22,605 nucleotides of DNA, taken from NCBI GenBank assembly GCA_934668285.1, contig CAKUNB010000011.1, positions 1 through 22,605 on the forward strand, given 5' to 3'. Every line of letters begins with the position of its first letter. The first letter of the stretch is position 1. This document shows positions 1,350 through 20,424 of the stretch, piece after piece. A program made the position numbers and the translations under genes. Source of the stretch: an uncultured Oscillospiraceae bacterium. GTDB lineage: Bacteria; Bacillota; Clostridia; Oscillospirales; Oscillospiraceae. The notes below the pieces were generated by a model, which worked only from the letters and a program-made list of their open reading frames with translations, had not been told where the DNA came from and did not search any database.

Positions 1350-2862
1350 TGACCGCACCTCCTCTCATGGCCGCGGCGATGATTTCTTCCTTGGTGCATT
1401 CGCCGCGCTTGAATTCCTTTACAATGTCGCCGTCGAAGAAGACGTACAGGCGGTCGCAGGTGTTGAGCAGCTCCTCCAGCTCAGAGGAAATGAACAGCAC
1501 GGCCTTCTTGTCCTTCTCGACGAGGTCTCTCAGCTTGAGATAGATATCATGCTTTGCGCCGAGGTCCATACCGGCGGTCGGCTCGTCAACGATCAGCAGC
1601 TTCAGGTTCTGCACCTCGACGGAGCGGCCGATGATGATCTTCTGCATGTTGCCGCCGGAGAGCTGCTGCATCGACTGGCCGACGTTGGAGTACTTGACCT
1701 TGTTTTTGGTCAGAACCTTCTGCGTGAACTCGGCAACCTTGTCGAACATGACCTTGCCGGTTCCCTTCTTGCTCAGCACGTCCCAGAAAAGGCTGCAGAT
1801 GTTATCCGACAGATTCAGGCCGCCGAAAATGCCGCGCGAACGAATCTCGGGCGTCAGCACCATGCCCTTGTGGATCATGGTGTAGGGGTCGCTGCTTGTG
1901 ATCGTCTTGCCGTCAAAGGTATAGCTGATGGGCGCGTCAGTCTTGCGTATACCGAACAGAACCTCTGCGGTTTCCGTCCGTCCAGAGCCGACCAGACCGT
2001 AGAAGCCGACCATTTCGCCGGAATAGATGTTGAAATTGACGCTGCGCTCCTTGCCGTCAAAGCTGAGCTTGTCTACCTCAATCACCTTCTCCGAATCGGC
2101 GGTGCGGGATTCCACGATGTTGATCGGGTCAATTTTTCCTTTTTTAATCATTGCGGCAATGCAGTCGTCCATCGGAAGCTCGGACGCCTTTGCCGTCAGA
2201 ACGCTGTGGCCTTCGGTGAATACCGTAATGTAATCGCAAATCTGATAAACTTCTTCCAGCTTATGGGAAATGAAGGCAATCGAAATGCCGAGATTGTCTC
2301 TTAACTGACAAATAAATTTCAGGAACGAATCGACCTCGCTCTCGCCGAGGGAGGCGGTCGGTTCGTCAAGAATCAGCAGCTGCGGATTCATATAAAATGC
2401 GCGCATGATCTCAATGAGCTGCTGCTCACCCGCGCCCAGCTTTTCCACCGGAACGTCCAGCGGGACGTCGATGCCCAGCTTCTCGCGGATGCTCTCTGCG
2501 CGCTGCTTGATCGTCCTTGTATCGACGACGCCCTTCTTCTTCGGCTCATGACCGAGGCAGATATTCTCCGCGCCCGTCATATAGCCGACAAGATTTCTCT
2601 CCTGATAGACCATGTTGATGCCGGCCTTCATCGATTCGGAGACCTTCTTGAATTTGACTTCCTTGCCGTTAAAGAAGATCTGGCCCTCGTCCGGTTTATA
2701 AACGCCGGTCAGCATTTTGCAAAGCGTCGACTTACCGGCGCCGTTTTCACCGACGAACGCATGGATCGAGTTGCGCTTGATCTCCATCGTTACGTCGTTG
2801 GAAGCGATGACGCCGGGAAAGCGCTTAAAGAGGTGCTTTACCTCCAGCACGTTTTCATTCAC
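1339..2862 (-). CDS. Sugar ABC transporter ATP-binding protein, two nucleotide-binding domains (RbsA/MglA type)
   Basis: Cytoplasmic ATPase of unit A, 507 residues, the normal length for the duplicated RbsA/MglA/AraG family. First domain: Walker A GENGAGKST at residues 38-46, signature LGAGEQQ, Walker B LLILDEPTASL. Second domain: degenerate P-loop GLVGSGRTE, good signature LSGGNMQK and Walker B LLIVDEPTAGMDLGAKH. A degenerate second Walker A is normal in this family. The ATG at 2862 is preceded by an AGGAAAGG ribosome binding site. It follows the binding-protein gene after about 128 bp that contain two hairpins, and its 3' end overlaps the permease start, the standard binding protein-ATPase-permease order. 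Substrate not deducible. Confidence 0.95.
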   Translation of the reverse strand: MNENVLEVKHLFKRFPGVIASNDVTMEIKRNSIHAFVGENGAGKSTLCKMLTGVYKPDEGQIFFNGKEVKFKKVSESMKAGINMVYQERNLVGYMTGAENICLGHEPKKKGVVDTRTIKQRAESIREKLGIDVPLDVPVEKLGAGEQQLIEIMRAFYMNPQLLILDEPTASLGESEVDSFLKFICQLRDNLGISIAFISHKLEEVYQICDYITVFTEGHSVLTAKASELPMDDCIAAMIKKGKIDPINIVESRTADSEKVIEVDKLSFDGKERSVNFNIYSGEMVGFYGLVGSGRTETAEVLFGIRKTDAPISYTFDGKTITSSDPYTMIHKGMVLTPEIRSRGIFGGLNLSDNICSLFWDVLSKKGTGKVMFDKVAEFTQKVLTKNKVKYSNVGQSMQQLSGGNMQKIIIGRSVEVQNLKLLIVDEPTAGMDLGAKHDIYLKLRDLVEKDKKAVLFISSELEELLNTCDRLYVFFDGDIVKEFKRGECTKEEIIAAAMRGGAVNVH

Positions 2863-2889
2863 AGCAAAAACCTACCTTTCCTGTTTGCG

Positions 2890-2957
2890 CTGACGGCAGC
2901 TTTGGCCGTCAGTTCAGATTGGAGACGACCGCCATGTGAAACACGGTCGTCTCCAAT
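2890..2957 (-). promoter_or_regulatory. Two strong hairpins between binding-protein and ATPase genes (mRNA stability/attenuation element)
   Basis: Two inverted repeats lie in the gap between the binding-protein and ATPase genes. The first met by the transcript is a perfect 14-bp stem, ATTGGAGACGACCG (2918-2931) with CGGTCGTCTCCAAT (2944-2957), loop 12 nt. The second is an 8-bp stem, CTGACGGC (2890-2897) with GCCGTCAG (2905-2912). In the transcription direction of unit A neither has a U-tract behind it, so they look more like 3'-end stabilisers or partial attenuators that keep binding-protein mRNA in excess. On the opposite strand the 14-bp stem is followed by T-rich sequence (2961-2976), so it could also stop antisense transcription. 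Confidence 0.7.
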
Positions 2958-2990
2958 CCGTTTTTATCTTTCTTTTAGGGGATGATAGGC

Positions 2991-4202
2991 TTATTCGGCG
3001 CCATCGGTGATCGTCATTGCGCCGCCCGCATCCGTCCAGTTATACCATGCATCGGGATCCGTGGGGTCGCCGCCATAGTAATCGAACACAGCGTGGATGC
3101 TTTCGCCGACTGCAGGAACGTTCTCACGGGTAACAACGCGGCCGTTTGCGTAGATGCACTCGCCAACGACGCGGATGAGGCAGCCCTCATCGCCGGGGTT
3201 CAGGCCGTCCTGCTGGATCTGGCCGATGAGCTCCATGATGTTGTGGGTATAGGCCTCGAAGGGCTGTGCGTAGTTGTAGCGGAAGGGGGTGTTGTCGCGG
3301 ATGTAGGCCCACGCGCGGGAGCCGCCGTCAAGGCCGGCCGTCCAGCACTTTTCGCCGGTGGGATCGCCGTTCTGGGCAATCGCTTCCGCAGCAGCAAGAG
3401 CGATGAAGTCGCAGCTGCCGACGATGCCAGTCATCTGATCGCCGTACTTTTGCAGCCATGCCTGCGTGTAGTCCCAGGTAACCTGCGCGGGGTCGCCGGT
3501 CGGGGTGATGTCCTCGTAGGCCAGCCAATTCATTTCGGGGTAAACCTCAGCGATGGCCATAATCGGCTCCACACGTTCGTTGTGAGACTGCACGGCGCTC
3601 GAGCCGAGGACGCAGATCTGATCCTTCCAGTAGTGCTCTTCGCCGATGGTGTACAGCAGCTCCATTGCCGCAACGCCGTTGGGCATGGAGGAGTTGGCAA
3701 TGATGCCCTCGACAACCTGGTTGTCGTTGCAGTAGACGCCGATGCCCTTCTCGCGGGCCTGGGCAATCAGGTCGACCTTGGAGGCCATGGATTCCATACT
3801 GAAGAGGATGATCGCGTCAACGTCCTGATTGATGAGGTTCAGGATGCCGTCGCGGCATTCCTGATCGTTTTCATAGTAGGCGTCGACCAGATTCCAGCCG
3901 CGGTGACCGGCCTCGATCTTGTACTGCTGGATGGTGCGGGACTGGGATTCGGATTCGGAACGGGTGTGAACATAGCCTACCGTCAGGCCTTCCTTCACAA
4001 CGCGGGGGCGGGGAAATGCGTCAAATGCTTCGAGGGTTCCGGTGTTGGTCTGATTGTCATTTGCCGATTCGCTGTTCTGCTGGGTTTCGCCGTTGGTCGG
4101 GGTCTCGGGTGCCGCCGAGGGGTCCTCGTTCGTCTTGCCGCCGCATCCCACCAGGGCAAGCAGCATGACGACTGCCAAGAGAAGCGCAATTACCTTTTTC
4201 AT
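2991..4202 (-). CDS. Sugar-binding lipoprotein of ABC transporter (periplasmic-binding-protein-like, type 1)
   Basis: Extracellular lipid-anchored solute-binding protein of unit A, 403 residues, longer than typical RbsB (about 300). The N-terminus has a Lys-Lys start, a hydrophobic core and the lipobox LVGC with Cys20 as the lipidated residue. A Ser/Thr/Asn/Glu-rich linker follows to about residue 55. The mature part has the alternating alpha/beta sequence of Peripla_BP_4 proteins (VDAYYENDQECRDGILNLI, then NQDVDAIILFSMES; the stretch GIGVYCNDNQVVEG). AAGGAG lies ahead of ATG 4202. It is 35 bp downstream of the aldolase gene. The extra length and the segment with GGSRAWAYIRDNTPFRYNY suggest a ligand other than plain ribose. 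Ligand unknown. Confidence 0.9.
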   Translation of the reverse strand: MKKVIALLLAVVMLLALVGCGGKTNEDPSAAPETPTNGETQQNSESANDNQTNTGTLEAFDAFPRPRVVKEGLTVGYVHTRSESESQSRTIQQYKIEAGHRGWNLVDAYYENDQECRDGILNLINQDVDAIILFSMESMASKVDLIAQAREKGIGVYCNDNQVVEGIIANSSMPNGVAAMELLYTIGEEHYWKDQICVLGSSAVQSHNERVEPIMAIAEVYPEMNWLAYEDITPTGDPAQVTWDYTQAWLQKYGDQMTGIVGSCDFIALAAAEAIAQNGDPTGEKCWTAGLDGGSRAWAYIRDNTPFRYNYAQPFEAYTHNIMELIGQIQQDGLNPGDEGCLIRVVGECIYANGRVVTRENVPAVGESIHAVFDYYGGDPTDPDAWYNWTDAGGAMTITDGAE

Positions 4203-4237: not shown

Positions 4238-5104
4238 TCAGAGGGCCAATTCCTGTGTACCAAACACGTCAATATGCTTCGAAATCTCAGCCTTGGCATC
4301 GATCAGAGCATCGGTGACCAGTGCGTCGAGGGCAATGTTCTTGCCGGCGCGGTCATTGACATACGCACGGGCGCGGGCACCGCCGGCGAGGCTGACCTCG
4401 GTGCAGAAGTTGATCTTATTGATGCCGCAGGCGACTGCCTTGCGGAACATTTCGTCGCTGAGGCCGGAGCCGCCGTGAAGCACCAGCGGGACCTTAACGG
4501 CTGCGCGGATTTTTTCGATGCGGTCGTAGTCGAGCTTCGGCTCGCCCTTGTAAACGCCATGGACAGTGCCGACGGCGATTGCCAGCGCGTCAACTTCAGT
4601 CTCCTCGGCAAAGCGCACCGCGTCCTCGACGTTGGTGAACTTGCTGTCGTCAACGATGTTGCCCTCGAGCATGTTGCCCTCGTGGCCGGACACGTGGCCG
4701 ATCTCTGCCTCGACGGAAACGCCGCAGGCGTGCGCCGCACGGACAACCTCACGGGTCTTTGCAATGTTCTCCTCGAACGGGAGGGACGAGCCGTCGAACA
4801 TCACGGAGGAGCAGCCATAGCGGATGGCCGTCATCGCGGACTCGAAGCTGGGGCCGTGGTCCAGATGCAGCGCCACGGGAACGCTCACACCTTCGCAGCG
4901 GGCGACAAAATACTTCATGATGCGCTCGAAGTGGGGTCTGTCAAACAGGAAGGGCGGGACCATCATGACGACGGGCTTGCCTGCCTCTTCGGCTGCGTCG
5001 AGAATGATCTCCGCATAGAGGTGATCCGTTGCGCCGAACGCGCCGACGGCGTACTTCTTCTCGACCGACTCACGGAGCAATTCCTTCATTGTAACGAGTG
5101 CCAT
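4238..5104 (-). CDS. Class II fructose/tagatose-bisphosphate aldolase family protein (GatY/KbaY-like)
   Basis: Zinc-dependent class II aldolase, 288 residues, matching the 284-286 of the tagatose-bisphosphate aldolases GatY/KbaY. These enzymes reversibly split ketose (bis)phosphates into dihydroxyacetone phosphate and an aldehyde. Residues visible at the family positions: Asp82 and His83 in HLDHG (catalytic acid and Zn ligand), His182 in GTVHGVY, His210 in LHGGSG, plus VEAEIGHVSG and GINKINFCTE for phosphate/ketose binding. The first gene of unit A, it starts about 94 nt downstream of the predicted transcription start. No kinase lies in the same unit; the PfkB kinase of unit C could supply its substrate. 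Whether the substrate is fructose-, tagatose- or another ketose-phosphate cannot be decided. A housekeeping FBP aldolase is less likely given the transporter context. Confidence 0.92.
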   Translation of the reverse strand: MALVTMKELLRESVEKKYAVGAFGATDHLYAEIILDAAEEAGKPVVMMVPPFLFDRPHFERIMKYFVARCEGVSVPVALHLDHGPSFESAMTAIRYGCSSVMFDGSSLPFEENIAKTREVVRAAHACGVSVEAEIGHVSGHEGNMLEGNIVDDSKFTNVEDAVRFAEETEVDALAIAVGTVHGVYKGEPKLDYDRIEKIRAAVKVPLVLHGGSGLSDEMFRKAVACGINKINFCTEVSLAGGARARAYVNDRAGKNIALDALVTDALIDAKAEISKHIDVFGTQELAL

Positions 5105-5182: not shown

Positions 5183-5197
5183 GTTAATTTGATTAAC
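5183..5197. promoter_or_regulatory. Operator A: AT-rich palindrome just downstream of the unit A promoter
   Basis: GTTAATTTGATTAAC, inverted arms GTTAAT and ATTAAC around TTG. It covers roughly +1 to +15 of the predicted unit A transcript, the classic place for a repressor. Near-identical sites occupy the same place at the unit B and unit C promoters (5492-5506 and 12546-12560). The binding protein is not identified in this window. Confidence 0.75.
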
Positions 5198-5204
5198 TGC
5201 TTTG

Positions 5205-5234
5205 AGTATACTCGCAATTCCTTGGAATTGTCAA
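5205..5234 (-). promoter_or_regulatory. Promoter of unit A (aldolase and first sugar transporter)
   Basis: On the minus strand, -35 TTGACA (5229-5234) and -10 TATACT (5205-5210) with an 18-bp spacer. The predicted start is near 5198, directly followed by operator A. Inside the spacer region there is a further inverted repeat, CAATTCC-TT-GGAATTG (5215-5230), which also touches the -35 box. Confidence 0.82.
5215..5230. promoter_or_regulatory. Second inverted repeat inside the unit A promoter
   Basis: CAATTCC (5215-5221) and GGAATTG (5224-5230) are perfect 7-bp arms around TT, lying between and partly over the -35 and -10 boxes. Its sequence differs from the GTTAAT operators, so it may bind another regulator or be chance. 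No other copy was noticed at the other promoters. Confidence 0.4.
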
Positions 5235-5459
5235 TGCGCGGAGTCTCCAAAAATGCGTGCGAAAATTTGTTTAATTTGACGAACTTATCTTTTACGTCCA
5301 ATCTGGGTCGTCGAATTTTGTCTTGTGTTTTTGCATTATGGCATGTCGGACGCCTTTTTAGCTCGTCTTTTTCGGTCCTCACCCACTCTTTCAGTTTGAG
5401 AAATTCTTCGATTTTTGAAAAAGAAAAGAAATAGTGCACAAATTGCCCCGCAAATTTCA
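5235..5459. other. AT-rich divergent intergenic core without a supported gene
   Basis: This stretch separates the back-to-back promoters of units A and B. It is much more AT-rich than the genes. I see no convincing coding sequence; the minus-strand open frame through it would have to span both promoters. The one notable item is a 12/15 match to the operator at 5270-5284. Confidence 0.6.
5270..5284. promoter_or_regulatory. Possible auxiliary operator (degenerate copy)
   Basis: TTTAATTTGACGAAC matches operator A (GTTAATTTGATTAAC) at 12 of 15 positions. It lies about 36 bp upstream of the unit A -35 box; its centre is 87 bp from the centre of operator A. An upstream secondary site could support looping, but AT-rich sequence makes chance matches possible. 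Confidence 0.35.
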
Positions 5460-5488
5460 TTGACAAATTCGTGATAGCGTCGTATAAT
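5460..5488 (+). promoter_or_regulatory. Promoter of unit B
   Basis: Perfect consensus sigma-A-type promoter: -35 TTGACA (5460-5465), 17-bp spacer, -10 TATAAT (5483-5488). The predicted start falls near 5495, inside operator B. The untranslated leader is about 80 nt and ends in AAGGAGG before the first gene. Such a strong promoter with an overlapping operator is what a tightly repressed catabolic operon needs. Confidence 0.88.
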
Positions 5489-5491
5489 TGA

Positions 5492-5506
5492 GTTAATTAA
5501 ATTAAC
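5492..5506. promoter_or_regulatory. Operator B: perfect 7-1-7 palindrome at the unit B promoter
   Basis: GTTAATTAAATTAAC, arms GTTAATT and AATTAAC around a central A, begins 4 nt after the -10 box. It is the most symmetric of the three shared operator copies and matches operator A at 13 of 15 positions. Confidence 0.78.
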
Positions 5507-5575
5507 AGCATGTGTTGGTGCGAATTGACCACCGGCACAATGATGTGATTTACTGAATACTAAGGAGGCTTCCCT

Positions 5576-6349
5576 ATGAAGATTGTTCGCTATCTGCGCG
5601 ACGGCGGCGCGGCGTACGGCATGCTCGCCGACGGCACCATTTACGGGCTGGCAGTTTCTCCGTTCGATCCCGCATTTGACGCAGCCGCTCCCGCTCTGGA
5701 CGGCACGCAGGCTCCCCTCTCCGAGACGGAGCTGCTGACCCCCTGCGTTCCAACCAAGTATCTGGGCGTGGGTCTGAACTCCACCGGCGCGGCCAAGGCC
5801 GTCGGGCGCCCCATCCCCACCTACCCAATCACCTTCCTCAAGCCGACCGGCGCGGTCATTGCCTCGGGCAAGCCGATTCAGATTCCCGTTTTTGACAACT
5901 GCAAATATCTCTACGAGGGCGAGCTGGCCGTCGTGATCAAAAAGGAGGGCAAGCGCATTCCGAAGGAAAAGGCAATGGACTACGTGCTCGGCTGCACCTG
6001 CTCCAATGACGTGACCGATTTTACGCAAGTCGACCGCGACGCGCTGCGCTTTAAGTGCGCCGACACCTTCGGCCCGATCGGCCCGTGCATCGACACGGAA
6101 GTCGACCCCTCCAACGCCCGCATCCGCAGCTGGGTCAACGGCCAGCAACGGCAGGACGGCAACACCTCCGAGATGATTTTTGACGTCCCCTACATGATCT
6201 CCTTCTTCTCGGAATTCATGACGCTCTATCCAGGCGACGTGATTTCGATGGGAACGCCCGCCGGTGCGGGACAGATCAACCCCGGCGACAAGATCACCAT
6301 CGAGGTCGAGGGCATCGGCGTGCTGGAAAACACGGTGGAGGCAATTTAA
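5576..6349 (+). CDS. Fumarylacetoacetate hydrolase (FAH) family protein
   Basis: Predicted metal-dependent hydrolase, isomerase or lyase acting on a C-C bond of a 2,4-diketo or 2-keto acid; in sugar-acid operons, relatives hydrolyse 2,4-diketo-3-deoxy-sugar acids to pyruvate plus a hydroxy acid. It has 257 residues. The FAH catalytic domain starts around residue 57 (TKYLGVGLN), with metal ligands Glu114 and Glu116 in YEGELAVVI, Asp145 in SNDVTDF, Lys160 and the GPIGP loop (166-170), and MGTPAGAG near the C-terminus. The short N-terminal beta domain is typical. ATG 5576 follows a full AAGGAGG. It is the first gene of unit B, with an SDR and an HpaI-type aldolase nearby supporting a sugar-acid role. 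Exact reaction unproven. Confidence 0.9.
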   Translation: MKIVRYLRDGGAAYGMLADGTIYGLAVSPFDPAFDAAAPALDGTQAPLSETELLTPCVPTKYLGVGLNSTGAAKAVGRPIPTYPITFLKPTGAVIASGKPIQIPVFDNCKYLYEGELAVVIKKEGKRIPKEKAMDYVLGCTCSNDVTDFTQVDRDALRFKCADTFGPIGPCIDTEVDPSNARIRSWVNGQQRQDGNTSEMIFDVPYMISFFSEFMTLYPGDVISMGTPAGAGQINPGDKITIEVEGIGVLENTVEAI

Positions 6350-6363
6350 TCGTTCCCTCCATT

Positions 6364-6484
6364 TGTCATTGCTCGGAGCGAAGCGACGCGGCAATCTCTT
6401 GCAGACTGTCCGAATTTGCCGAAAGCCCCCGTAACTTTTGAATCCCTCTGCGAGATTGCCACGGCTTGCGGCCTCGCAATGACA
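6364..6484. repeat. Palindromic intergenic repeat (REP/MITE-like)
   Basis: A 121-bp element between the FAH and SDR genes with imperfect inverted ends of about 34 bp. Arm 1 (6364-6398) begins TGTCATTGC and ends GGCAATCTC; arm 2 (6452-6484) begins GAGATTGCC and ends GCAATGACA. The arms read GGAGCGAAGCGACG and GGCCGCAAGCCG between those conserved ends. Sequences of this layout are, as I recall, widespread dispersed repeats in bacterial genomes. It sits inside unit B and would form a large RNA hairpin there, possibly reducing readthrough or altering stability. No coding content. Confidence 0.75.
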
Positions 6485-6554
6485 TGCTTTGACCTTTCCC
6501 CTCTGAAGCTGATCTCACTATTACAATAATAATATTTGAAAGGCAGGTTTTATC

Positions 6555-7343
6555 ATGTACAGCGAACTCAACGGAAGAATCGCCGTCGTCACCGGCGCCG
6601 GCAGCGGCATTGGCCGCGAAATCTGCGAGCGTTTTGCCAGAGAGCACATGACCATCGTGGCAACCGGCCGCAGAAGCAATGTCGAGCAGACAATGGAGCT
6701 GGTTCGGCAGATCGATCCCGGCAACAAGGGCATGCCCGTCATTATGGACGTGACCGATCCGGACTCCGTGCAGTCTGCGGTCAAGCTGATCGTCAAGGAG
6801 TATGGCCGTGTGGACGTGCTGGTCAACAACGCCGGTATCCCGCACGAGTTCATGCGTGCGATCGATATTCCAAACGACGTGGCAAAGCACCTGATGGACG
6901 TGAACTTCATGGGTACCTTCTACTGCTCCAAGTATTTCGGCCAGCAGATGCGCGAGCAGAAGTTCGGCAACATCATCAACATCGGCTCCTGGTCCGGCAA
7001 GACCGGCTCCAAGTTCTTCGGTCTCTACTGCGCCTCCAAGGCGGCCATGCATGTCTTCGCGCAGTCGATGGCCCTCGAAATGGCGGACTACGGCGTGCGC
7101 GTGAACACCGTCTGCGGCGGCGCGATTGACGGAAACCGTCTGAAGACCTCCTTCGAAAGCGAATGTGTTGCAAACGGGATCACCTTCGAGGAGCACGCAC
7201 AGAACATCATCAACATGATTCCCCTGCACCGCTTCGGCACCGGCGAGGACATGGCCAACATGGCGACCTTCCTCATCTCCGACAACGCGTCGTACATCAC
7301 CGGTCAGGCCATCAACATCTGCGGCGGAATTGAATTCCATTAA
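6555..7343 (+). CDS. SDR family NAD(P)-dependent oxidoreductase
   Basis: Classical short-chain dehydrogenase, 262 residues. It shows the cofactor motif TGAGSGIG at 13-20, NNAG at 91-94 and the catalytic set Asn117, Ser145, Tyr158 and Lys162 (YCASK). The C-terminus has the usual ITGQAINICGG. The Arg-Arg after the second strand (TGRR, 37-40) hints at NADP use, but this is weak. In sugar-acid routes such SDRs oxidise aldoses, or the C4/C5 hydroxyl of 2-keto-3-deoxy acids ahead of an FAH-type hydrolase, which fits the gene just upstream. The ribosome binding site GAAAGGCAGG is modest. It is separated from the FAH gene by the palindromic repeat, so partial uncoupling is possible. Confidence 0.93.
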   Translation: MYSELNGRIAVVTGAGSGIGREICERFAREHMTIVATGRRSNVEQTMELVRQIDPGNKGMPVIMDVTDPDSVQSAVKLIVKEYGRVDVLVNNAGIPHEFMRAIDIPNDVAKHLMDVNFMGTFYCSKYFGQQMREQKFGNIINIGSWSGKTGSKFFGLYCASKAAMHVFAQSMALEMADYGVRVNTVCGGAIDGNRLKTSFESECVANGITFEEHAQNIINMIPLHRFGTGEDMANMATFLISDNASYITGQAINICGGIEFH

Positions 7344-7355
7344 GGAGGCGCAATA

Positions 7356-8330
7356 ATGAAATACAAGCTGTTATGCAACTACTGGCTTCCCAAGGCCTGC
7401 ACTGAGCCGTATACCGATCAGTTTACCTTTATCTGCCCGACGGAGAAAGAGGATCACTATACGCAGGAACAGATCAAGGAACGCATCGGCGACTGCGACG
7501 TTTTCTTTGATGTCCGCGACTGGGCACGCCGCGACCTGATTGAAGCCGGCAAGAACCTTAAGGTCATCGCAAACCACGCCGTCGGCTATGACGCAATCGA
7601 TGTCGATTGCTGCAACGAGCGCGGAATTGCCGTCGTCCTCTGCGCGACGAAGGTCACGGAGACGACCGCCGAGCTGGCCGTAGCGCTCATGATGGCCACG
7701 ATGCGCAGCGTCGCCAGATACGACCGCGAAATTCGCAACGGCATCTGGACCTCCGGTCCGTGGATCGACACCGACACGCAGCTGTTCGGCCACACGCTCG
7801 GCGTGATCGGCTTCGGCCGCATCGGCAGAGCCTTTGCAAAGAAGGCGCGCGGTCTTGGCATGACCATTCAGTACTACGATCCCTTCCGCGCCTCCCCCGA
7901 GGTCGAGCGCGAATATGAGGCGACCTATCTGCCGCTCGACGAGCTGCTGGCAAGCTCCGACTGCGTCACGCTGCATCTGCCCTATACGAAGGAAAATCAC
8001 AACCTGATCAACGCCGATGCCTTCGCCAAAATGCGCGACGGCTCCTATCTGATCAACGCGGCGCGCGGCCCCATCGTGGACGAGGACGCAATGATCGCAG
8101 CGCTCAAGAGCGGTAAGCTGCGCGGCGCCGGTCTCGACGTTTTCGTCGGCGAGCCGCAGGTCAACCCCGAGCTGCTGAAGCTGCCGAACGTGGTAATGAC
8201 GCCGCACGCGGGCAGCCAGACGCTCGAAACGCGCGTAAATATGTGGAACGAGGGCATGGAGGGTGTCATCAGCGTCCTGAACGGCAAAACGCCGCCCAAC
8301 ATCGTCAATCCGCAGGTGATGTCTAAATAA
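7356..8330 (+). CDS. D-isomer-specific 2-hydroxyacid dehydrogenase
   Basis: NAD-dependent dehydrogenase interconverting 2-keto acids and D-2-hydroxy acids (glycerate, glyoxylate/hydroxypyruvate and phosphoglycerate dehydrogenase family), 324 residues. The Rossmann motif GFGRIG is at 152-157, and Asp175 in YYDPFR is compatible with NAD. The catalytic triad is visible: Arg237 in NAARGPIVDE, Glu266 in VGEP and His284 in PHAGS. No extra regulatory domain, so biosynthetic SerA is unlikely. TAAGGAGG precedes ATG 7356, 12 bp after the SDR gene. It could reduce a 2-keto product (pyruvate, hydroxypyruvate, glyoxylate) released by the aldolase or hydrolase of the same unit. Substrate not resolved. Confidence 0.93.
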   Translation: MKYKLLCNYWLPKACTEPYTDQFTFICPTEKEDHYTQEQIKERIGDCDVFFDVRDWARRDLIEAGKNLKVIANHAVGYDAIDVDCCNERGIAVVLCATKVTETTAELAVALMMATMRSVARYDREIRNGIWTSGPWIDTDTQLFGHTLGVIGFGRIGRAFAKKARGLGMTIQYYDPFRASPEVEREYEATYLPLDELLASSDCVTLHLPYTKENHNLINADAFAKMRDGSYLINAARGPIVDEDAMIAALKSGKLRGAGLDVFVGEPQVNPELLKLPNVVMTPHAGSQTLETRVNMWNEGMEGVISVLNGKTPPNIVNPQVMSK

Positions 8331-8434
8331 TTACGTTTGCGGCACAGCCGAGCGGTACGATCCACTGTCCTACCCCGCCCAGCTGCGCCGCTTGCGCACC
8401 TTGTATACATATTAAAAGAATGGAGGAAACCGAC

Positions 8435-9187
8435 ATGACGTTAATCGACGCCCACACTCATGTGGGCACCTGTCAGGTTCTCGGCGCAAACAGCACCTTC
8501 GAGGCCGTCTGGGCCAAGATGGAGCAGTACCATATCCAGACCTCCCTCGTCCAGCCGCATCCGTGGCCGAAGGAGCCGGAGCGCGAGCACGAGGATATCG
8601 CTAATCTGGCTGCAAAATACCCCGGCCGCATCTACGGCATGGCCTGCTTCAACCCCTATCTGGAGGAAGCTGAGTATGAGCGGCTGCTGAAATGGGCAAT
8701 TCGCGACCTTGATTTCCGCGGCGTAAAGATCCAGACCGGTCCGCAGGCGCTTTCGCCGCTGCATCCTGCCTGCGACAAGATTTTCCGCCTTGCAAACGAG
8801 CTGCACATTCCGGTGATGATTCACACCGGCGTGGGCATTCCGAACGCGCTGCCCTCGCTGGCCATTCCCCGCGCAATGGAATATCCGGAGCTTCCGATCG
8901 TGCTGGCGCACGCGGGCGCGAATCTTTTCACAACGGAGGCCATTGTCGCCGCGCAGATCTGCAAGAATATCTATCTCGAAACCTCGTGGGTCACGAGCTT
9001 TGACACCATCCCGCTGCTGCAGAAGGTCGAATCCGAGCGCGTTATGATGGGCTCGGACGTTCCGGAGAACGTGGCAAGCGAGCTGTGCAAGTACGAGAGT
9101 GTGGAAATGACCGACCACCAGCGCCGCCAGTGCATGGGCAAAACTGCAGCGACGCTCTACCGTCTCCCCTACGAGGACGGGCAATAA
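8435..9187 (+). CDS. Amidohydrolase family protein (metal-dependent TIM-barrel hydrolase, COG2159-like)
   Basis: Predicted metal hydrolase or decarboxylase of the amidohydrolase-2 group, 250 residues. The N-terminal metal motif DAHTH gives His7 and His9. Others are GVKIQTG (Lys98 region), His130 in MIHTG, His159 in LAHAG and Asp208 in GSDVPE, the expected order. I start at ATG 8435, because the upstream in-frame ATG at 8420 is immediately followed by the GGAGG that serves the 8435 start. Members hydrolyse lactones or amides or decarboxylate small acids; in this unit a sugar lactonase or an acid decarboxylase is plausible. The 104-bp gap before it holds no clear promoter, only the short palindrome TGTATACA (8402-8409). 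Confidence 0.85.
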   Translation: MTLIDAHTHVGTCQVLGANSTFEAVWAKMEQYHIQTSLVQPHPWPKEPEREHEDIANLAAKYPGRIYGMACFNPYLEEAEYERLLKWAIRDLDFRGVKIQTGPQALSPLHPACDKIFRLANELHIPVMIHTGVGIPNALPSLAIPRAMEYPELPIVLAHAGANLFTTEAIVAAQICKNIYLETSWVTSFDTIPLLQKVESERVMMGSDVPENVASELCKYESVEMTDHQRRQCMGKTAATLYRLPYEDGQ

Positions 9188-9207
9188 GCAGCAAAAGGAG
9201 AGATACT

Positions 9208-9990
9208 GTGAAAATCAAAACTGCCGTCAAGCAGAAATTCCGCAGCGGCCAGCCCGTTACCATGGCGTTCCTGTGCTCGAAGGACGCCAATCTGGCGGAG
9301 CTGATGGCGCTCTGCGGCGTCGACATCGTCATTCTTGACAATGAGCATTTTACCTTCTCGGAGGCCGATATTTCCGGCATTCTGCGGGCGCTTTCCCCGT
9401 ATGAGACCGCCTGCATGCTCCGCACCACCAGCACTGACGCGGGCTTCCTGTCCCGCCTGATGGAGCTGGGCATCAACGGCATCATGGCGCAGCAGGTTAA
9501 GAGCGCCGAGCATGTCAGAAAAATCATCGACGCCGTGAAATACTATCCCGAGGGCAGCCGCGGCTTCGGCATGAGCCGTGCGCTCTCCTTCGGCGCGGAG
9601 CCGCTCGACCCCGCTGCATACATGAAGGCGGCAAACGACAATTTCCTGCTCATTCCCGTGGTGGAGGATGAGGAGGGCGCTTCCCATGCGGCGGAGATCG
9701 CGGCGATCCCCGGCGTTGACAGCGTGAACGTCGGCGCGATGGATCTGTCGCTTTCCATGGGCTACGGCAGCAAGCGCACGCCCGAGGTCATGGCGGTCGT
9801 GCAGGCGACGCAGAAGGCCATCAAGGAGGCCGGCAGCATCTGCGCCGACTTTGTTACCGCGCCGGAGCAGGTGCCGGAGCTGATCAAAAACGGCTCGAAG
9901 CTCCTGCTGCTCGGCACCGAGCAGTCGATGATCGTCAACTTCCTGCAGCCGATTCTCCGCGCGCTGAAGGACGCCGCAGGCAGCTGCTGA
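9208..9990 (+). CDS. HpcH/HpaI family aldolase (2-keto-3-deoxy-acid aldolase type)
   Basis: Class II, divalent-metal pyruvate aldolase that would split a 2-keto-3-deoxy acid into pyruvate and an aldehyde. It has 260 residues from a GTG start at 9208, chosen because AAAGGAG lies just upstream and the longer frame runs back into the amidohydrolase gene. Visible residues: Asp44/Glu46/His47 in LDNEH (general base region), Arg72 in MLRTT, YYPEGSRGFG (112-121), Glu153 in VVEDEEG and Asp179 in GAMDLS as metal ligands, at the same numbers as in rhamnonate aldolase RhmA/YfaU. One deviation: the loop usually reading IP.V is IMAQQV here (92-97), so substrate preference may differ. It follows the amidohydrolase by 20 bp. 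Confidence 0.9.
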   Translation: MKIKTAVKQKFRSGQPVTMAFLCSKDANLAELMALCGVDIVILDNEHFTFSEADISGILRALSPYETACMLRTTSTDAGFLSRLMELGINGIMAQQVKSAEHVRKIIDAVKYYPEGSRGFGMSRALSFGAEPLDPAAYMKAANDNFLLIPVVEDEEGASHAAEIAAIPGVDSVNVGAMDLSLSMGYGSKRTPEVMAVVQATQKAIKEAGSICADFVTAPEQVPELIKNGSKLLLLGTEQSMIVNFLQPILRALKDAAGSC

Positions 9991-10017
9991 AAAATCAGAA
10001 GAAAGAAGAGGAACACT

Positions 10018-10968
10018 ATGAATATTGCAGTACTGGGCGCAGGCGCAATGGGCTCGCTGTTCGGCTACAAGCTGAAAAAGGACGGCCACAACGTCTGCCT
10101 GATCGACATCTGGAAGGATCATGTTGCGGCCGTCAATCAGCACGGCCTGACGATCGAAACGCCGGACGGCGCGACCGACACCATCCCCATTCCGATGGTG
10201 GAGCACCCCGAGGAGGTGCCCGCCGTGATGAAGGAGCCGGTTGAGCTGATCATTGTCTTCGTCAAGGGCACCGCGACGGACTCGGCCATCCGGCAGGCCG
10301 CCTGCATCGTCAGCAAGGACACCAAGGTCATCACCTTGCAGAACGGCGTCGGCAACGCCGACGTGCTGGCAAAGTACATTCCTGCCAATCAGGTCTATTT
10401 CGGCACCACCACGGTGGGCGCCACCATCAAGTCTGCGGGGCATGTGATCTATTATCCCGCACAGAAGGAAACCTGCACGCACATTGCCACGATGGACGGC
10501 TCTGTCACCGCAGGCATCGAGGCCGTGGCGAGTGCGTTTACCAAGGCCGGTCTGACCACCATCGTTTCCTCGGAGACTGAGGCGCTGGTGTGGAAAAAGC
10601 TGGTCGTCAATTGCATCGGAAATCCCATGTCCGTGGTCACGCGGCTGTACAGCAACGTGCTGTGCAGCGACGACGACAACACCATTCTCACCAAGCAGAT
10701 CATCGACGAGTCCTGCGCCGTCGCGCAGAAGAAGGGGCTGCCGATCACGCCCGATCAGTTTGACTGGGTTATTCCGTTTACCTCCAAGCTTGAGCGCTTC
10801 CCCTCGATGGGCTACGACGCAATGAATAAAATGCCGACCGAGATCGAAACGATCAACGGCGCTGTGGTGCGCGAGGGCAAGCGCCTCGGCGTTCCCACGC
10901 CGGTTAACGAAACGCTCTACCATCTGGTGCGCCTGATCAGCGCGCATTACGACAAGCGCGTGTACTGA
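10018..10968 (+). CDS. Ketopantoate reductase-like (ApbA/PanE family) 2-keto acid reductase
   Basis: NADPH-dependent reductase of the PanE family, 316 residues (E. coli PanE has 303). N-terminal Rossmann GAGAMG at 7-12, FVKGTATDSA (81-90), LQNG (107-110), the catalytic lysine region VWKKLVVNC (Lys193/Lys194), and C-terminal TEIETINGAVV with Glu275 in the position of the substrate-binding Glu. Ribosome binding site GAAGAGGAA, 27 bp after the aldolase gene. No other pantothenate genes are near, and catabolic genes surround it, so I infer it reduces a keto acid or aldehyde of this pathway rather than ketopantoate. PanE function cannot be excluded from sequence. Confidence 0.87.
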   Translation: MNIAVLGAGAMGSLFGYKLKKDGHNVCLIDIWKDHVAAVNQHGLTIETPDGATDTIPIPMVEHPEEVPAVMKEPVELIIVFVKGTATDSAIRQAACIVSKDTKVITLQNGVGNADVLAKYIPANQVYFGTTTVGATIKSAGHVIYYPAQKETCTHIATMDGSVTAGIEAVASAFTKAGLTTIVSSETEALVWKKLVVNCIGNPMSVVTRLYSNVLCSDDDNTILTKQIIDESCAVAQKKGLPITPDQFDWVIPFTSKLERFPSMGYDAMNKMPTEIETINGAVVREGKRLGVPTPVNETLYHLVRLISAHYDKRVY

Positions 10969-10978
10969 TTCTCCCTTC

Positions 10979-11057
10979 GGGCGCGCCGCAGAGTGATTGC
11001 CGCAGCGGGATTTTTGATACTTTTCTCCGCTTCCTCGCCTGCGGCGCGCCCATTTTT
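10979..11057 (+). terminator. Long-loop GC hairpin followed by T-run (partial terminator or attenuator)
   Basis: Perfect 13-bp arms GGGCGCGCCGCAG (10979-10991) and CTGCGGCGCGCCC (11039-11051), then ATTTTT (11052-11057). The 47-nt loop itself contains AGCGG and CCGCT that can pair. The layout is terminator-like but the loop is long, so partial readthrough into the last two genes of unit B is likely. Confidence 0.5.
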
Positions 11058-11083
11058 ACTTACTCAGGAAAGGACTTGAAAAA

Positions 11084-11389
11084 ATGATTGTCATGATTTG
11101 CTCTCTGCGCGTAAAAACCGGCTGCGGGCCGGAGCTGGAGCGCCATGTGGCCGAGCTGGCCGCTGCAATGGCGGAGCATGCGGGCGTGCTGGGCTTTAAC
11201 CTGAACCGCAGCACCGAGGATCCGGCAGCCTATACTCTGATCGAAAAGTACGCCGACGAGGGCGCGCTCTATTACCATTCCACCTGCGAGGCGGGCAAGC
11301 GCTTTGCCGCGCGGGCAAACGAGCTGGTCGACGGCGGCGTTTCCTGCGTGCGCTGCGACGAGGTTGTGGACATTGGCATCTATAAGTGA
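11084..11389 (+). CDS. ABM-domain protein (antibiotic biosynthesis monooxygenase/YgiN-like, dimeric alpha-beta barrel)
   Basis: Small cytosolic protein of 101 residues with the ABM layout: an N-terminal strand (MIVMICSLRVKTG), a helix (ELERHVAELAAAMAEHAG), a central strand with LGFNLNRSTEDP, then YTLIEKYADEGALYYH with its conserved Tyr/Glu/His pattern, and a second helix. AGGAAAGG precedes ATG 11084. Family members range from quinol monooxygenases to proteins of unknown function, and sugar mutarotases of the RhaM type share the same fold. A mutarotase-like or small-molecule-binding role would suit this operon, but that is inference; nothing here proves oxygenase activity, which would be odd in an anaerobe. 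Confidence 0.85.
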   Translation: MIVMICSLRVKTGCGPELERHVAELAAAMAEHAGVLGFNLNRSTEDPAAYTLIEKYADEGALYYHSTCEAGKRFAARANELVDGGVSCVRCDEVVDIGIYK

Positions 11390-11433
11390 GGCCGGCAGGG
11401 TCTCGCTATTTTTCGACATTACGGGAGGTAACA

Positions 11434-12384
11434 ATGAAAAATACAAGGTTCGGCTCCACCGAGCTGATGGTATCGCCCATCTGCGTGGGAACGTGGAGCA
11501 TGGGCGGCGGCTCCTTCTGGGGCGCTTCTGACGACGGCGAATGCATCGCCGCCATTCACGCCATGCTGGAGCGCGGCGTGAACATCATCGACACCGCGCC
11601 GGCCTACAACGGCGGCCGCGCCGAGGAGCTGGTCGGCAAGGCGGTCGCGGACCGGCGCGACAAGGTCTGCATTGTGACAAAGTCCGCCGTCTTTGATAAT
11701 CCCGACCCGAACGGGATGCCCATCAACGACGGCACCTATCAGAGCATTCTCCGTCAGGCGGAGGATTCCCTGCGGCGGCTCGGGACAGATTACGTGGACG
11801 TGCTGCTGATGCACTGGCCGGATCCGGCGACGCCGCTGGAGGAATCCATGCGCGCCTACGCCGAGCTGAAAAAAAGCGGCAAGGCGCGGTATATCGGCGT
11901 CTCCAACTTTACCGTCGAGCAGCTGGAGGAGGCCAACCGGTACTGCAAGCTCGATGTCTTCCAGCTGCCGTACTCGCTGGTTGACACCGCGCAGAAGGAT
12001 CGCGCGGAATGGGCGCACGCGCAAGGAATGGCAAACATGTCCTACGGCTCGCTGGGCGGCGGCATTCTGACGGGTGCGTACCGCACGCTCCCCACCTTCC
12101 CTGAAAAGGACGCACGCTCGTGCTTCTATCAGGGCTTCCATGAGCCGTATTTCTCCAAGGTGATGGGACTGCTGAAGATCATGGACCGCATTGCCGAGGC
12201 GCACGGAACGACACCCGCGCAGGTTGCGGTAAAGTGGATTAACGAAAGCGGGCTGATCGATACGGCAATTGTCGGCGTGCGCAGCGTGAAAAAGGCAATT
12301 GCCAACTGCGAAGGACTGGATTGGAGCATGGCGGAGGCCGAATGGCAGGAGCTTGAGGCCTATCGGCAGGCAAATCTTGGATAA
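11434..12384 (+). CDS. Aldo/keto reductase
   Basis: NADPH-type (beta/alpha)8 aldo/keto reductase, 316 residues, which interconverts aldehydes or ketoses and alcohols. The catalytic tetrad is complete: Asp53 and Tyr58 in DTAPAY, Lys83 in VTKS, His127 in LLMHWPD. IGVSNF and the C-terminal IVGVRS are also typical of the YajO/Tas-like group. ATG 11434 follows GGGAGG; the longer frame starting at 11386 would overlap the preceding gene and lacks a site. It is the last gene of unit B and could reduce the aldehyde released by the HpaI-type or class II aldolase. The downstream 120 bp contain only weak hairpins (CACGA/TCGTG at 12433-12449), so the end of unit B is not sharply defined. Confidence 0.92.
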   Translation: MKNTRFGSTELMVSPICVGTWSMGGGSFWGASDDGECIAAIHAMLERGVNIIDTAPAYNGGRAEELVGKAVADRRDKVCIVTKSAVFDNPDPNGMPINDGTYQSILRQAEDSLRRLGTDYVDVLLMHWPDPATPLEESMRAYAELKKSGKARYIGVSNFTVEQLEEANRYCKLDVFQLPYSLVDTAQKDRAEWAHAQGMANMSYGSLGGGILTGAYRTLPTFPEKDARSCFYQGFHEPYFSKVMGLLKIMDRIAEAHGTTPAQVAVKWINESGLIDTAIVGVRSVKKAIANCEGLDWSMAEAEWQELEAYRQANLG

Positions 12385-12507
12385 ACTTACAAAAATGCTC
12401 GGCATTTACAGGCATCCGCGCAGAATGTTTTACACGACAGCTTTTCGTGATATTTACCATTATTTTTTGTCAAAAATTGTTGATAATGTAGAAAACGGAA
12501 AGAATTA

Positions 12508-12536
12508 TTGACAAACCGTTGGCGGTAGTGTATAAC
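12508..12536 (+). promoter_or_regulatory. Promoter of unit C
   Basis: -35 TTGACA (12508-12513), 17-bp spacer, -10 TATAAC (12531-12536). The predicted start is near 12543. Upstream sequence is strongly AT-rich, like an UP element. The leader is about 100 nt and ends in AAAAGGAG before the binding-protein gene. Confidence 0.83.
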
Positions 12537-12545
12537 TAAACTAAA

Positions 12546-12560
12546 GTTAAATTGATTGAT
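12546..12560. promoter_or_regulatory. Operator C: third copy of the shared palindrome
   Basis: GTTAAATTGATTGAT matches operator A (GTTAATTTGATTAAC) at 12 of 15 positions, with the match extending to AA on the left flank. It begins 9 nt after the -10 box, the same setting as operators A and B. Its right arm is degenerate, suggesting weaker repression. Confidence 0.62.
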
Positions 12561-12590
12561 TTTATTTTTCTTTCCTGTTTTCGTAATATA

Positions 12591-12603
12591 CAGCCAACGG
12601 CTG
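12591..12603 (+). other. Small hairpin in the leader of unit C
   Basis: CAGCC-AAC-GGCTG, a 5-bp GC stem with 3-nt loop about 38 nt ahead of the start codon. It is followed by A-rich rather than T-rich sequence, so it is not a terminator; it may protect the 5' end. Function uncertain. Confidence 0.35.
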
Positions 12604-12641
12604 AATATTAAAAAATACTCAAGAAAAAAGGAGAAAACACC

Positions 12642-13661
12642 ATGAAAAAGCTCATCGCGCTTCTGTTAGTTCTCGTCCTTTCCGTGTGCCTGTTCGCAGC
12701 CTGCGGGAAGCAGCCCGAACAAACCGAGCAGCCCGCGCCGACCGATCCGGTCGCCTCCGAAGATCAGCCCACTCCCACCGAGGACGGCGGCGATACCCCC
12801 GACGTCAAGGATCTCAAGGTCGCTCTTGTTACCGTCACGCAGAGCTTTGACTTCTTCATCAACGCAGAAAAAGGTATGCAGGACGTGTTCGACGAGCAGG
12901 GCATTGAATTTGCCGTTTACAACTACGACATCGACTCCGACCGCATGATTGAGGTTCTGACGCAGGTGCAGGCCATGGACTTTGACGTTGTCATCTGCTC
13001 CTTCTACGATAACTCCTGCGCCAATACGCAACTGCAGGAGCTGCGCGACCGCGGCATCAAGGTCGTCACCTACGAATCCGCTCCCTCTGACGACTCCGTC
13101 GCCGACGCGATCATCCTGTCCGACGACTTCACCTCCGGCTACCTCTGCGGCAAGGCAATGTGCGAGGCCATCGGCGGCGAAGGTCAGGTGTTCTCCTACT
13201 GCAACCGCACGATGAACTCCGTTGCAAACCGTCTGGCGGGCTTTGAGAAGGCGCTGACCGAGTACCCCAACGTTGAGCATGTGACGAACCTTGAGGACTC
13301 TTCCTCTGAGAGCGACACGAACGCAGGCGCGGCTCTGATTCAGAACGTCATCTCCCTGTACCCCGACATCAAGGGCTACTTCTCCGGCGGCGAATCGAAC
13401 TGCCTGCTGGCAGCTCCCGTTGTGCAGGACCTCGGCATCACCGATCAGATCTACATTGCAACCGTCGACTGCACCTCCATGCTGCTGGACTACATGCAGC
13501 AGGGCATCGTCAACTGCTGCATCGATCAGGACTCCTACAACCTCGGCCGCACCGTTGCCGAAACCGCGATTGCCGCCTACCTCGGCGAAACGGTTGAGCA
13601 CTACATCTACTCGCCGGTCACGCTGGTCGACTCCAGCAACATGGCCGACTTCATCAAGTAA
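12642..13661 (+). CDS. Sugar-binding lipoprotein of second ABC transporter (RbsB-like)
   Basis: Extracellular lipoprotein that captures substrate for the unit C importer, 339 residues. The signal has MKK, a Leu/Val core and the lipobox FAAC with Cys21; Phe at -3 is slightly unusual. A Pro/Glu/Thr-rich linker runs to about residue 55, then a Peripla_BP_4 domain starts at LKVALVTVTQSFDFFINAE. DFDVVICSFYDNSCANTQLQ (in part) and LSDDFTSGYLCGKAMCEAIG correspond to the substrate-pocket and hinge segments of RbsB-like proteins. It is clearly different in sequence from the unit A binding protein, so the two importers probably take different compounds. Start supported by AAAAGGAG. Ligand unknown. Confidence 0.93.
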   Translation: MKKLIALLLVLVLSVCLFAACGKQPEQTEQPAPTDPVASEDQPTPTEDGGDTPDVKDLKVALVTVTQSFDFFINAEKGMQDVFDEQGIEFAVYNYDIDSDRMIEVLTQVQAMDFDVVICSFYDNSCANTQLQELRDRGIKVVTYESAPSDDSVADAIILSDDFTSGYLCGKAMCEAIGGEGQVFSYCNRTMNSVANRLAGFEKALTEYPNVEHVTNLEDSSSESDTNAGAALIQNVISLYPDIKGYFSGGESNCLLAAPVVQDLGITDQIYIATVDCTSMLLDYMQQGIVNCCIDQDSYNLGRTVAETAIAAYLGETVEHYIYSPVTLVDSSNMADFIK

Positions 13662-13698
13662 GCATTCCACAATCGTTCACCTAAGCGAAACGGAACAG

Positions 13699-13740
13699 GC
13701 CGGCTGCGGTTATATCAGTGATGACCGCAGTCGGCTTCTT
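13699..13740 (+). promoter_or_regulatory. Hairpin between binding-protein and ATPase genes of unit C
   Basis: Arms GCCGGCTGCGGT (13699-13710) and ACCGCAGTCGGC (13724-13735) form a 12-bp stem with one G-U pair and a 13-nt loop, followed by TTCTT. It has the same location as the hairpins at 2890-2957 in unit A. Likely role: partial termination or 3' stabilisation so that the binding protein is made in excess over the ATPase and permease. Confidence 0.65.
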
Positions 13741-13768
13741 CCCGACCTGACATAAAGGAGGGGTAGAA

Positions 13769-15277
13769 ATGGACGGCAAATATGTCATCGAGATGGAAAA
13801 TATTTGCAAATCCTTTTACGGCGTCCAGGTTTTACGAAACGCACAGATCAACGTCGCTCCGGGCGAGGTAGTTGCGCTGATCGGCGAAAACGGCGCGGGT
13901 AAATCCACGCTGATGAACATTCTGTGCGGCATTCATCAGGCCGATTCCGGTACCATCCGGATGTTCGGCGAGGAAATCAAGGTCAACAATCCGCACGACG
14001 CCTATCTCAAGCGCATTGCCATGGTACATCAGGAAATCTGCCTGGTCGAGCAGATGAGCGTAGAGGACAATCTGTTCCTCGGCTCCGAGCCGAAGAGCAA
14101 TCTGCTGAATCGGGACAAGGCAACCGTTCGGGAAAAAACGCAGGAGGCGCTCGATCTGCTCGATCTGCCGTTCGCGCCAAACACGCCCGTTGAGCGGCTG
14201 AATGTTGCGCAGCAGCAGATGGTCGAGGTTGCCCGCGCTATCGTTTTTGACGCAAAGGTCGTAATTTTTGACGAGCCTACCGCTTCCCTTTCCTCCGCGG
14301 AGACGGAAAAGCTGTTTGAAGTCGTCCGCGCCATGCAGGAAAAGGGCATCGGTATTATCTATATTTCCCACCGGCTGGAGGAAATCTTCCGGATCTGCAA
14401 CCGCGTCACCGTGCTGCGCGACTCGCAGTTCATCGGCACGCGCTATGTCTCCGACATTACGAAGGACGAGCTGGTCGCCATGATGGTCGGCCGGACGATC
14501 GACGACTATTTCGGCGACAAGAAGACCTACGGCAGCGACAGAACCGTGCTGTCCGTCCGCGGACTGACCGGCGAAAAGTTCCACGATGTCAGCTTCGACC
14601 TCAAGGAGGGCGAAATCCTCGGCTTCTCGGGGCTGGTCGGCGCGGGGCGCACGGAAATGGTACGGGCGCTGTTCGGCGTAGACCCCATTCACACGGGCGA
14701 GGTTTATCTCGACGGCAAGAAGCTGAAGGTCAAAAATCCCGGCCAGATGATCGGCGAGGGCTTTGCGATGGTGTCCGAGGACCGGAAAAAATACGGGCTG
14801 ATCCTCAACAACTCCGTCGCCTTCAACCTGACGCTGATGGTCGCAAAGCGCTTTATCAAGCACCTGCACGTCGACAAGAACAAGGAAATCGACATCATCA
14901 ACGAATACGTGCAGAAGCTGCGCATCAAGCTTGCCAGTCCCTCGCAGCTCTGTCAGAATCTCAGCGGCGGCAACCAGCAGAAGGTCGTTATCTCGAAATG
15001 TCTGGCCGCCGGTTCGAAAATTCTGATCATGGACGAGCCGACGCGCGGCATCGACGTCGGCGCAAAGCACGAAATCTACGAGCTGATCATGCGTCTGGCA
15101 CGCGATGAGCATTTGTCTATCATCATGATATCCTCGGAGCTTTCCGAGATACTCAACCTGAGCAGCCGCATCGCCGTGATGCACGAGGGCGCGCTGGTGC
15201 ACACCTTTGACACCGCGCGCGAGACGGTGACGCAGGAAATGATCATGCAATATGCAACAATGGGAGGAGACAATTAA
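13769..15277 (+). CDS. Sugar ABC transporter ATP-binding protein, two nucleotide-binding domains (RbsA/MglA type)
   Basis: Cytoplasmic ATPase of the second importer, 502 residues, full family length. First domain: Walker A GENGAGKST at 39-47, Walker B VVIFDEPTASL, with the signature degenerate (LNVAQQQ instead of LSxGQQ), a variation that MglA-like proteins also show. Second domain: GLVGAGRTE in place of Walker A, good signature LSGGNQQK and ILIMDEPTRGIDVGAKH. ATG 13769 follows AAAGGAGG. Its stop codon is directly followed by the permease ATG (zero gap). The second-domain Arg in DEPTRGID is the form usual in RbsA. Confidence 0.95.
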   Translation: MDGKYVIEMENICKSFYGVQVLRNAQINVAPGEVVALIGENGAGKSTLMNILCGIHQADSGTIRMFGEEIKVNNPHDAYLKRIAMVHQEICLVEQMSVEDNLFLGSEPKSNLLNRDKATVREKTQEALDLLDLPFAPNTPVERLNVAQQQMVEVARAIVFDAKVVIFDEPTASLSSAETEKLFEVVRAMQEKGIGIIYISHRLEEIFRICNRVTVLRDSQFIGTRYVSDITKDELVAMMVGRTIDDYFGDKKTYGSDRTVLSVRGLTGEKFHDVSFDLKEGEILGFSGLVGAGRTEMVRALFGVDPIHTGEVYLDGKKLKVKNPGQMIGEGFAMVSEDRKKYGLILNNSVAFNLTLMVAKRFIKHLHVDKNKEIDIINEYVQKLRIKLASPSQLCQNLSGGNQQKVVISKCLAAGSKILIMDEPTRGIDVGAKHEIYELIMRLARDEHLSIIMISSELSEILNLSSRIAVMHEGALVHTFDTARETVTQEMIMQYATMGGDN

Positions 15278-16291: not shown

Positions 16292-16323
16292 TCAAAGCCC
16301 TCGGGCAGAAAGGAACTATTATC

Positions 16324-17367: not shown

Positions 17368-17392
17368 CCGCGCAACGACAAGGAGAATTGCT

Positions 17393-19393: not shown

Positions 19394-19433
19394 GAAAGAG
19401 CGAATGGCAGGTCGTGCCATTCGCTCTTGTTTC
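19394..19433. terminator. Bidirectional terminator between unit C and the GntR gene
   Basis: Perfect 14-bp stem AAGAGCGAATGGCA (19396-19409) and TGCCATTCGCTCTT (19415-19428) with a GGTCG loop. It is followed by TGTTTC on the plus strand and by a TCTTTGC tail on the minus strand. It lies between two convergent genes, so it probably ends both transcripts. Confidence 0.85.
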
Positions 19434-20320: not shown

Positions 20321-20349
20321 TTGACAACCGCGTTGTCATTCGGTATGAT
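20321..20349 (+). promoter_or_regulatory. Promoter of unit D
   Basis: -35 TTGACA (20321-20326), 17-bp spacer, -10 TATGAT (20344-20349). The palindrome at 20349-20358 touches the last base of the -10 box and covers the predicted start near 20356. The leader of about 70 nt ends in AAAGGAG before ATG 20425. Confidence 0.83.
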
Positions 20350-20375: not shown

Positions 20376-20424
20376 ACATGTATAAAACAGTTAGCAGATC
20401 GATTTTGAAAGGAGCTACAAAACC

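Follow-up and report, generated by a model that had tools for sequence, protein, structure and literature searches.

Two perfect palindromes as a probable common operator of divergent operons, with a candidate third site, in an uncultured Oscillospiraceae bacterium

We analyzed a 22,605-nucleotide stretch of DNA (the window) from an uncultured Oscillospiraceae bacterium (GCA_934668285.1, contig CAKUNB010000011.1), in which two operons, designated units A and B, diverge from a 471-bp intergenic region. This region carries two perfect copies of the palindrome GTTAAT-N3-ATTAAC, one downstream of each of two divergent promoters with near-consensus hexamers, and the sequence, symmetry, and position of these copies give good support to an operator common to both units. 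The two copies are probably read by one protein that binds DNA as a dimer, most likely as a repressor. A site of lower quality precedes a further operon, unit C, and is treated here as a candidate. The features of units A and B are given below.

5183..5197, minus strand: operator O_A, GTTAATTTGATTAAC, with both arms of GTTAAT-N3-ATTAAC intact, 7 bp past the unit A -10 box
5492..5506, plus strand: operator O_B, GTTAATTAAATTAAC, with perfect arms of GTTAAT-N3-ATTAAC, 3 bp after the unit B -10 box
5270..5284, plus strand: degenerate copy between O_A and O_B with three arm mismatches, a possible auxiliary site that may be chance
5205..5234, minus strand: promoter-like TTGACA-N18-TATACT of unit A
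5460..5488, plus strand: promoter-like TTGACA-N17-TATAAT of unit B
4238..5104, minus strand: unit A gene 1, class II ketose-bisphosphate-type aldolase
354..4202, minus strand: unit A genes 2-4, periplasmic sugar-binding-type protein, ABC ATPase, and permease
5576..12384, plus strand: unit B, eight genes, FAH-family hydrolase, SDR, D-2-hydroxyacid dehydrogenase, amidohydrolase, HpcH/HpaI aldolase, ketopantoate-reductase-like protein, ABM protein, and aldo-keto reductase

The original prediction had placed one palindromic operator at three promoters (A, B, and C), with 12-13 of 15 bases matching between copies. The letters and coordinates of all three sites were correct on re-reading, and each site indeed lay a few bases past the -10 box of a TTGACA-N17/18 promoter (7 bp in A, 3 bp in B, and 9 bp in C). 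The arm bases of GTTAATNNNATTAAC were matched at 12/12 positions in both A and B and at 9/12 in C. Plus-strand identities between A and B (13/15) and between A and C (12/15) were within the predicted range, whereas B and C shared 10/15. When A was read in its own direction of transcription, its identity was 14/15 with B and 9/15 with C. The likeness of O_A to O_B extended into the flanks (22 nt at 82%).

A perfect site was found in none of 2000 dinucleotide shuffles of the 471-bp region, which in reality has two. When the site start was restricted to 0-12 bp after the -10 box, none of 5000 shuffles was as good as the real site at A, and none of 5000 at B. Places with no more than three mismatches numbered 11 in the window, five noncoding (the two perfect sites, 5270, 5450, and 12546) and six coding; noncoding DNA, as defined by the 21 genes taken as the set, amounts to 2,628 of the 22,605 bases.

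By our arithmetic, the site centers are 86 (A), 77 (B), and 89 bp (C) upstream of the start codons, and at A and B the symmetric site overlaps the sigma-70-type start region predicted from the promoter. Each operator copy would lie approximately over the point at which transcription from its promoter is expected to begin, where a bound dimer would block open-complex formation or promoter escape, and a sugar-derived inducer would release A and B together. Because O_A and O_B are 309 bp apart, center to center, each most likely serves its own promoter, with looping possible. We infer one transcript for each of units A, B, and C; the gene count agrees with the earlier description of unit B as an eight-gene enzyme unit. 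The spacer between the -35 and -10 boxes of the unit A promoter (5215-5230) also holds a palindrome, CAATTCCTTGGAATTG; it may act as a second operator or may have arisen by chance, since the window has many short palindromes that are perfect.

The A/B operator pair would be an ordinary catabolic arrangement, in which only the pathway and the repressor could be new. The same two-palindrome layout is found in divergons with double operator sites, as described in the accessible portions of reports on the GntR family (PMC4494728) and the LacI family (PMC4052901). In the window divergon, both operons consist of structural genes, each operator lies near its own operon, and the sites differ from the HutC core (GT-N4-AC type) given in the former source.

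Several results weigh against a shared operator at A and B. A broad pattern, consisting of TANNNT followed by the palindrome within 9 bp, was present in 57 of 398 genomes from the phylum of a Clostridium sp. locus (L001), and its reversed control in 65 (hand count); there was no enrichment. An orthologous A/B locus was not recognized in the searches reported below, so no conserved promoter was seen. In the predicted fold of the unit A leader, O_A forms a 7-bp RNA hairpin, and the unit B leader folded somewhat better than its shuffles (z = -1.95, with 8/200 as good). Since the pattern was present in 57 genomes vs. 65 for the control, the palindrome is not a general operator in that phylum and, if functional, would be specific to this lineage or regulon. 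In favor of the A/B operator, no exact palindrome was found in five related genomes; the control columns were zero too, so this result shows rarity only, and exact copies are expected by chance approximately once in 21 Mb of even composition, by our estimate.

The same repressor might also hold unit C through a site at 12546, giving a three-operon regulon for a single pathway, as the original prediction had it; we rate this a possibility somewhat below even. The features of unit C are as follows.

12546..12560, plus strand: candidate weak operator O_C, GTTAAATTGATTGAT, matching the arms at 9/12 bases and located 9 bp past the -10 box, not established
12508..12536, plus strand: promoter-like TTGACA-N17-TATAAC of unit C
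12642..19386, plus strand: unit C, six genes, sugar-binding-type protein, ABC ATPase, permease, two Zn-dehydrogenases (the second YdjJ-like), and YdjH-like PfkB kinase
19396-19428: terminator-like stem of 14 pairs after unit C

The position of the C site relative to its -10 box resembles that of A and B. It differs from the palindrome at 3/12 arm bases, however, and its identities with B (10/15) and with A in the direction of transcription (9/15) also count against inclusion of unit C. The proposed joint switching of A and B is supported by perfect sites, whereas that of C depends on a degenerate site that was equaled in 136 of 5000 positional shuffles. The quality of the C site was likewise matched in 388 of 2000 shuffles of 12509-12600 and, anywhere in the leader, in 982 of 5000. 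For the positional count of 136 in 5000, correction for the three promoters tried outside the A/B pair gave P of approximately 0.08 by our arithmetic. A coding match at 12229, with two mismatches, is better than the C site. Because of these shuffle counts and the match at 12229, we regard A and B as secure and C as a candidate, and the A/B repressor may have unit C as a third target that it binds more weakly. The promoters of two other genes, the transaldolase-like one at 20425 and the GntR gene described below, showed no such site (5 and 6 mismatches, respectively, 0-12 bp after the -10 box).

All 200 shuffles of the unit C leader (12540-12641) folded less well than the leader itself (z = -2.97), and the C site is inside a 9-pair stem of the predicted fold. 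This calls for caution, because the partial symmetry of the site may serve the RNA. A further hairpin was predicted in this leader around CAGCCAACGGCTG.

Gene content points more clearly to a link between units A and C. The unit C kinase was 39% identical to Escherichia coli YdjH; against the PDB, the ydjH sequence scored 189 bits and the next entry 91, with 40 for the other chain named YdjH (8iwl). The second dehydrogenase of unit C matched YdjJ (38%, 252 bits) ahead of YdjL (112 bits) and GatD (110 bits). In the E. coli K-12 cluster (L144), the YdjH kinase and YdjJ stand beside the YdjI aldolase and the YdjG reductase, and the RefSeq names are L-glycero-L-galacto-octuluronate kinase for YdjH and its 1-phosphate aldolase for YdjI. 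The YdjJ-like dehydrogenase and YdjH-like kinase (17393-19386) suggest an octuluronate-type or other unusual sugar-acid pathway. The unit A aldolase scored 170 bits with GatY, 166 with KbaY, and 160 with YdjI, and the best NCBIfam model for the unit B aldo-keto reductase was YdjG, far under the cut-off (165 of 550 bits). Because these scores are not specific for YdjI or YdjG, both proteins were placed at the family level, which weakens the case for the three-operon regulon.

In the accessible portions of PMC6561318, ydjLKJIHG is treated as one operon, with a promoter that responds in the mouse gut. The E. coli genes form this one cluster together with the ydjF regulator gene, whereas their counterparts in the window are distributed among unit A, the last gene of unit B, and unit C. 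The window also differs in its transport genes, which encode two ABC importers instead of the E. coli transporters YdjE and YdjK, and in having seven further enzymes beyond the E. coli set. No palindrome with three or fewer mismatches was found in the three E. coli upstream regions compared, and YdjF had no match among the 21 window proteins that were compared with it.

A single cluster of Diplocloster agilis (L065) unites the aldolase (46%), the kinase (34%), the first (54%) and second (42%) dehydrogenases, and an ABC importer. As points of difference from the window, regulator-type genes of its own (LacI-family, ROK, and cNMP-binding-domain) border this cluster, which also has a LacI-type element, GATAAAACGTTTTATC. 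Another of its sequences, GTTAAATTATTTAAC, precedes a -35-like TTGACA instead of following a -10 box. This sequence was considered as the same operator and set aside, the cluster having its own regulators and the LacI-type element. Because of the Ydj-type enzyme set and the D. agilis cluster, joint use of A and C, and hence their joint control, is plausible without the degenerate site; judged from these sequence similarities, A and C plausibly share a pathway.

It is a more speculative, and in our view doubtful, extension that the window represents a three-operon regulon of a poorly sampled lineage, in which a repressor reading the odd palindrome GTTAAT-N3-ATTAAC would control two ABC importers, a Ydj-type kinase/aldolase/dehydrogenase route, and the amidohydrolase, FAH-type hydrolase, and HpcH/HpaI aldolase enzymes, together constituting a previously undescribed route for an unusual sugar such as a higher-carbon sugar acid. 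Shared operators are among the few sequence-only clues that tie importers and enzymes to one pathway. Should A, B, and C prove to be co-regulated, the natural substrate of the Ydj-type pathway could be sought by using sugars as inducers.

The original prediction stated that the one repressor is not visibly encoded here; this needs amendment in that a GntR/HutC (UTRA) regulator gene is present next to unit C. This gene and the promoter region beyond it are listed here.

19437..20189, minus strand: GntR/HutC (UTRA) regulator gene
20321-20349: fourth promoter-like sequence, TTGACA-N17-TATGAT, upstream of the transaldolase-like gene at 20425

The closest PDB entry to the encoded protein is the repressor YvoA. 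As the sole regulator recognized in the window and the neighbor of unit C, it might be the protein that reads the GTTAAT sites, which we consider unlikely. The accessible portions of PMC4494728 give NyGTMTAKACNy as the HutC consensus and report other motifs for some HutC proteins. No exact HutC core was found at A, B, or C; the single exact GTMTAKAC box in the window (20350-20357, plus strand) lies directly after the TATGAT -10 box of 20321-20349. At least one such box occurred in 26 shuffles out of 100; the argument is therefore carried by its position, the box being weak by itself. Because the consensus box is found only after this promoter, the GntR/HutC protein is probably not the A/B repressor, and by motif and position it is more likely to act at the 20350 box than at the GTTAAT sites.

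Within 20321-20391, GTATATACAAGTACTATTAAGTACTTACATGTATA stands right after the promoter as an imperfect inverted repeat with the sole exact HutC-type box, and its position makes it a probable operator of the adjacent GntR gene product. Downstream of this region are the transaldolase-like gene at 20425 and an RpiB-type isomerase gene. An assignment of the gene at 20425 as GatZ was dropped, since neither GatZ nor KbaZ of E. coli matched it.

The A/B sites also do not resemble those of the LacI family. In the accessible portions of PMC4052901, 1251 of 1303 LacI-family motifs are even palindromes, and odd ones are given for 4% of regulators. LacI-type sites are even and usually have a central CG; the A/B sites are 15 bp, odd, and have an N3 center without CG. 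They do not, for this reason, look LacI-like. The A/B repressor is probably encoded outside the window.

The palindromes could instead be activator sites, for example of a LysR-type protein, or sites of a global regulator, a reading that we find improbable. LysR-type sites follow the pattern T-N11-A, which an odd 15-bp palindrome fits. The sites are located downstream of the -10 box, however, which is a repressor position, and the promoters are already near consensus. A global regulator is disfavored by the absence of exact copies from the five related genomes and by the lack of enrichment over the control in the 398 genomes.

Chance AT-rich similarity or leader RNA hairpins, to which the AT-rich intergenic DNA, the O_A hairpin, and the predicted stem at C would lend some credit, are very improbable as the explanation of A and B, given that no shuffle reproduced their sites, that the unit A leader folded no better than shuffles, that the unit B fold leaves the palindrome unused, and that no Rfam family was matched in the window. 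On these predicted folds, RNA explanations for A and B are weak; chance or RNA is disfavored for A and B and possible for C.

The palindrome and the window genes were also sought in other DNA. Among the matches listed in an aldolase profile search of genome contigs, 80 loci (1,302,975 bases) contained no exact palindrome, three with one mismatch, and 66 with two; the best aldolase match listed was 52% identical, and none of those listed had the gene order of the window. A second aldolase search gave 1 of 197 genomes, which was the center itself, and others gave 8/187 and 12/188 (one being the center), all distant matches. The FAH protein was matched in 1/7, and on plasmids in 1066 records, all below 60% identity. 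The amidohydrolase was found in 3 of 398 genomes, with 20-kb surroundings that lacked other window genes except for one 38% RpiB match. Among protein sequences, the closest relatives were 76% identical for the aldolase (P0002) and 79% for the amidohydrolase (P0122), and the amidohydrolase of the window itself occurs on contigs as long as 82,495 bases. The first dehydrogenase (0/398 genomes) and one further orthologue search (0/214) gave nothing, and because both lacked a positive control, these empty answers show nothing. Viral contigs gave no match, and oligonucleotide composition pointed to no clear taxon. The motif strings, exact or degenerate, had their sole literature occurrence in an unrelated human-genetics paper; the accessible portions of PMC3750489 and PMC8579813 make no mention of the palindrome, and those of PMC4972977 and PMC11778176 had no bearing on it.

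In the 30 loci read for the broad pattern, 15 of 31 sites were outside reading frames of at least 80 amino acids. The proteins beside eight of these noncoding loci were checked, and none points to the operons of the window. One site (L109) adjoins a flavodoxin-domain gene and a PCMT gene. A one-mismatch match (L004) was rejected as coding. An exact 15-mer of O_B approximately 100 bp before a lone Zn-alcohol dehydrogenase (L111) was dropped, no promoter being evident by eye.

Two further palindromes stand near other types of genes. In L092, the palindrome is 10 bp after TATAAT, with an ABC ATPase gene on one side and an AI-2E-type transporter gene on the other, and in L105 it adjoins a MarR-type gene; other regulators may use similar palindromes at these loci.

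Unit B has a 205-bp gap between its first two genes, in which 6360-6490 contains GAGCGAAGCGACGCGGCAATCTC together with a reverse counterpart that matches it imperfectly (GAGATTGCC...GCAATGACA). A 21-base part of this sequence had no exact copy in 146 loci, and at seed 9 the gap had no inverted pair of at least 14. The region of GAGCGAAGCGACGCGGCAATCTC resembles a type of dispersed repeat that occurs in other bacteria.

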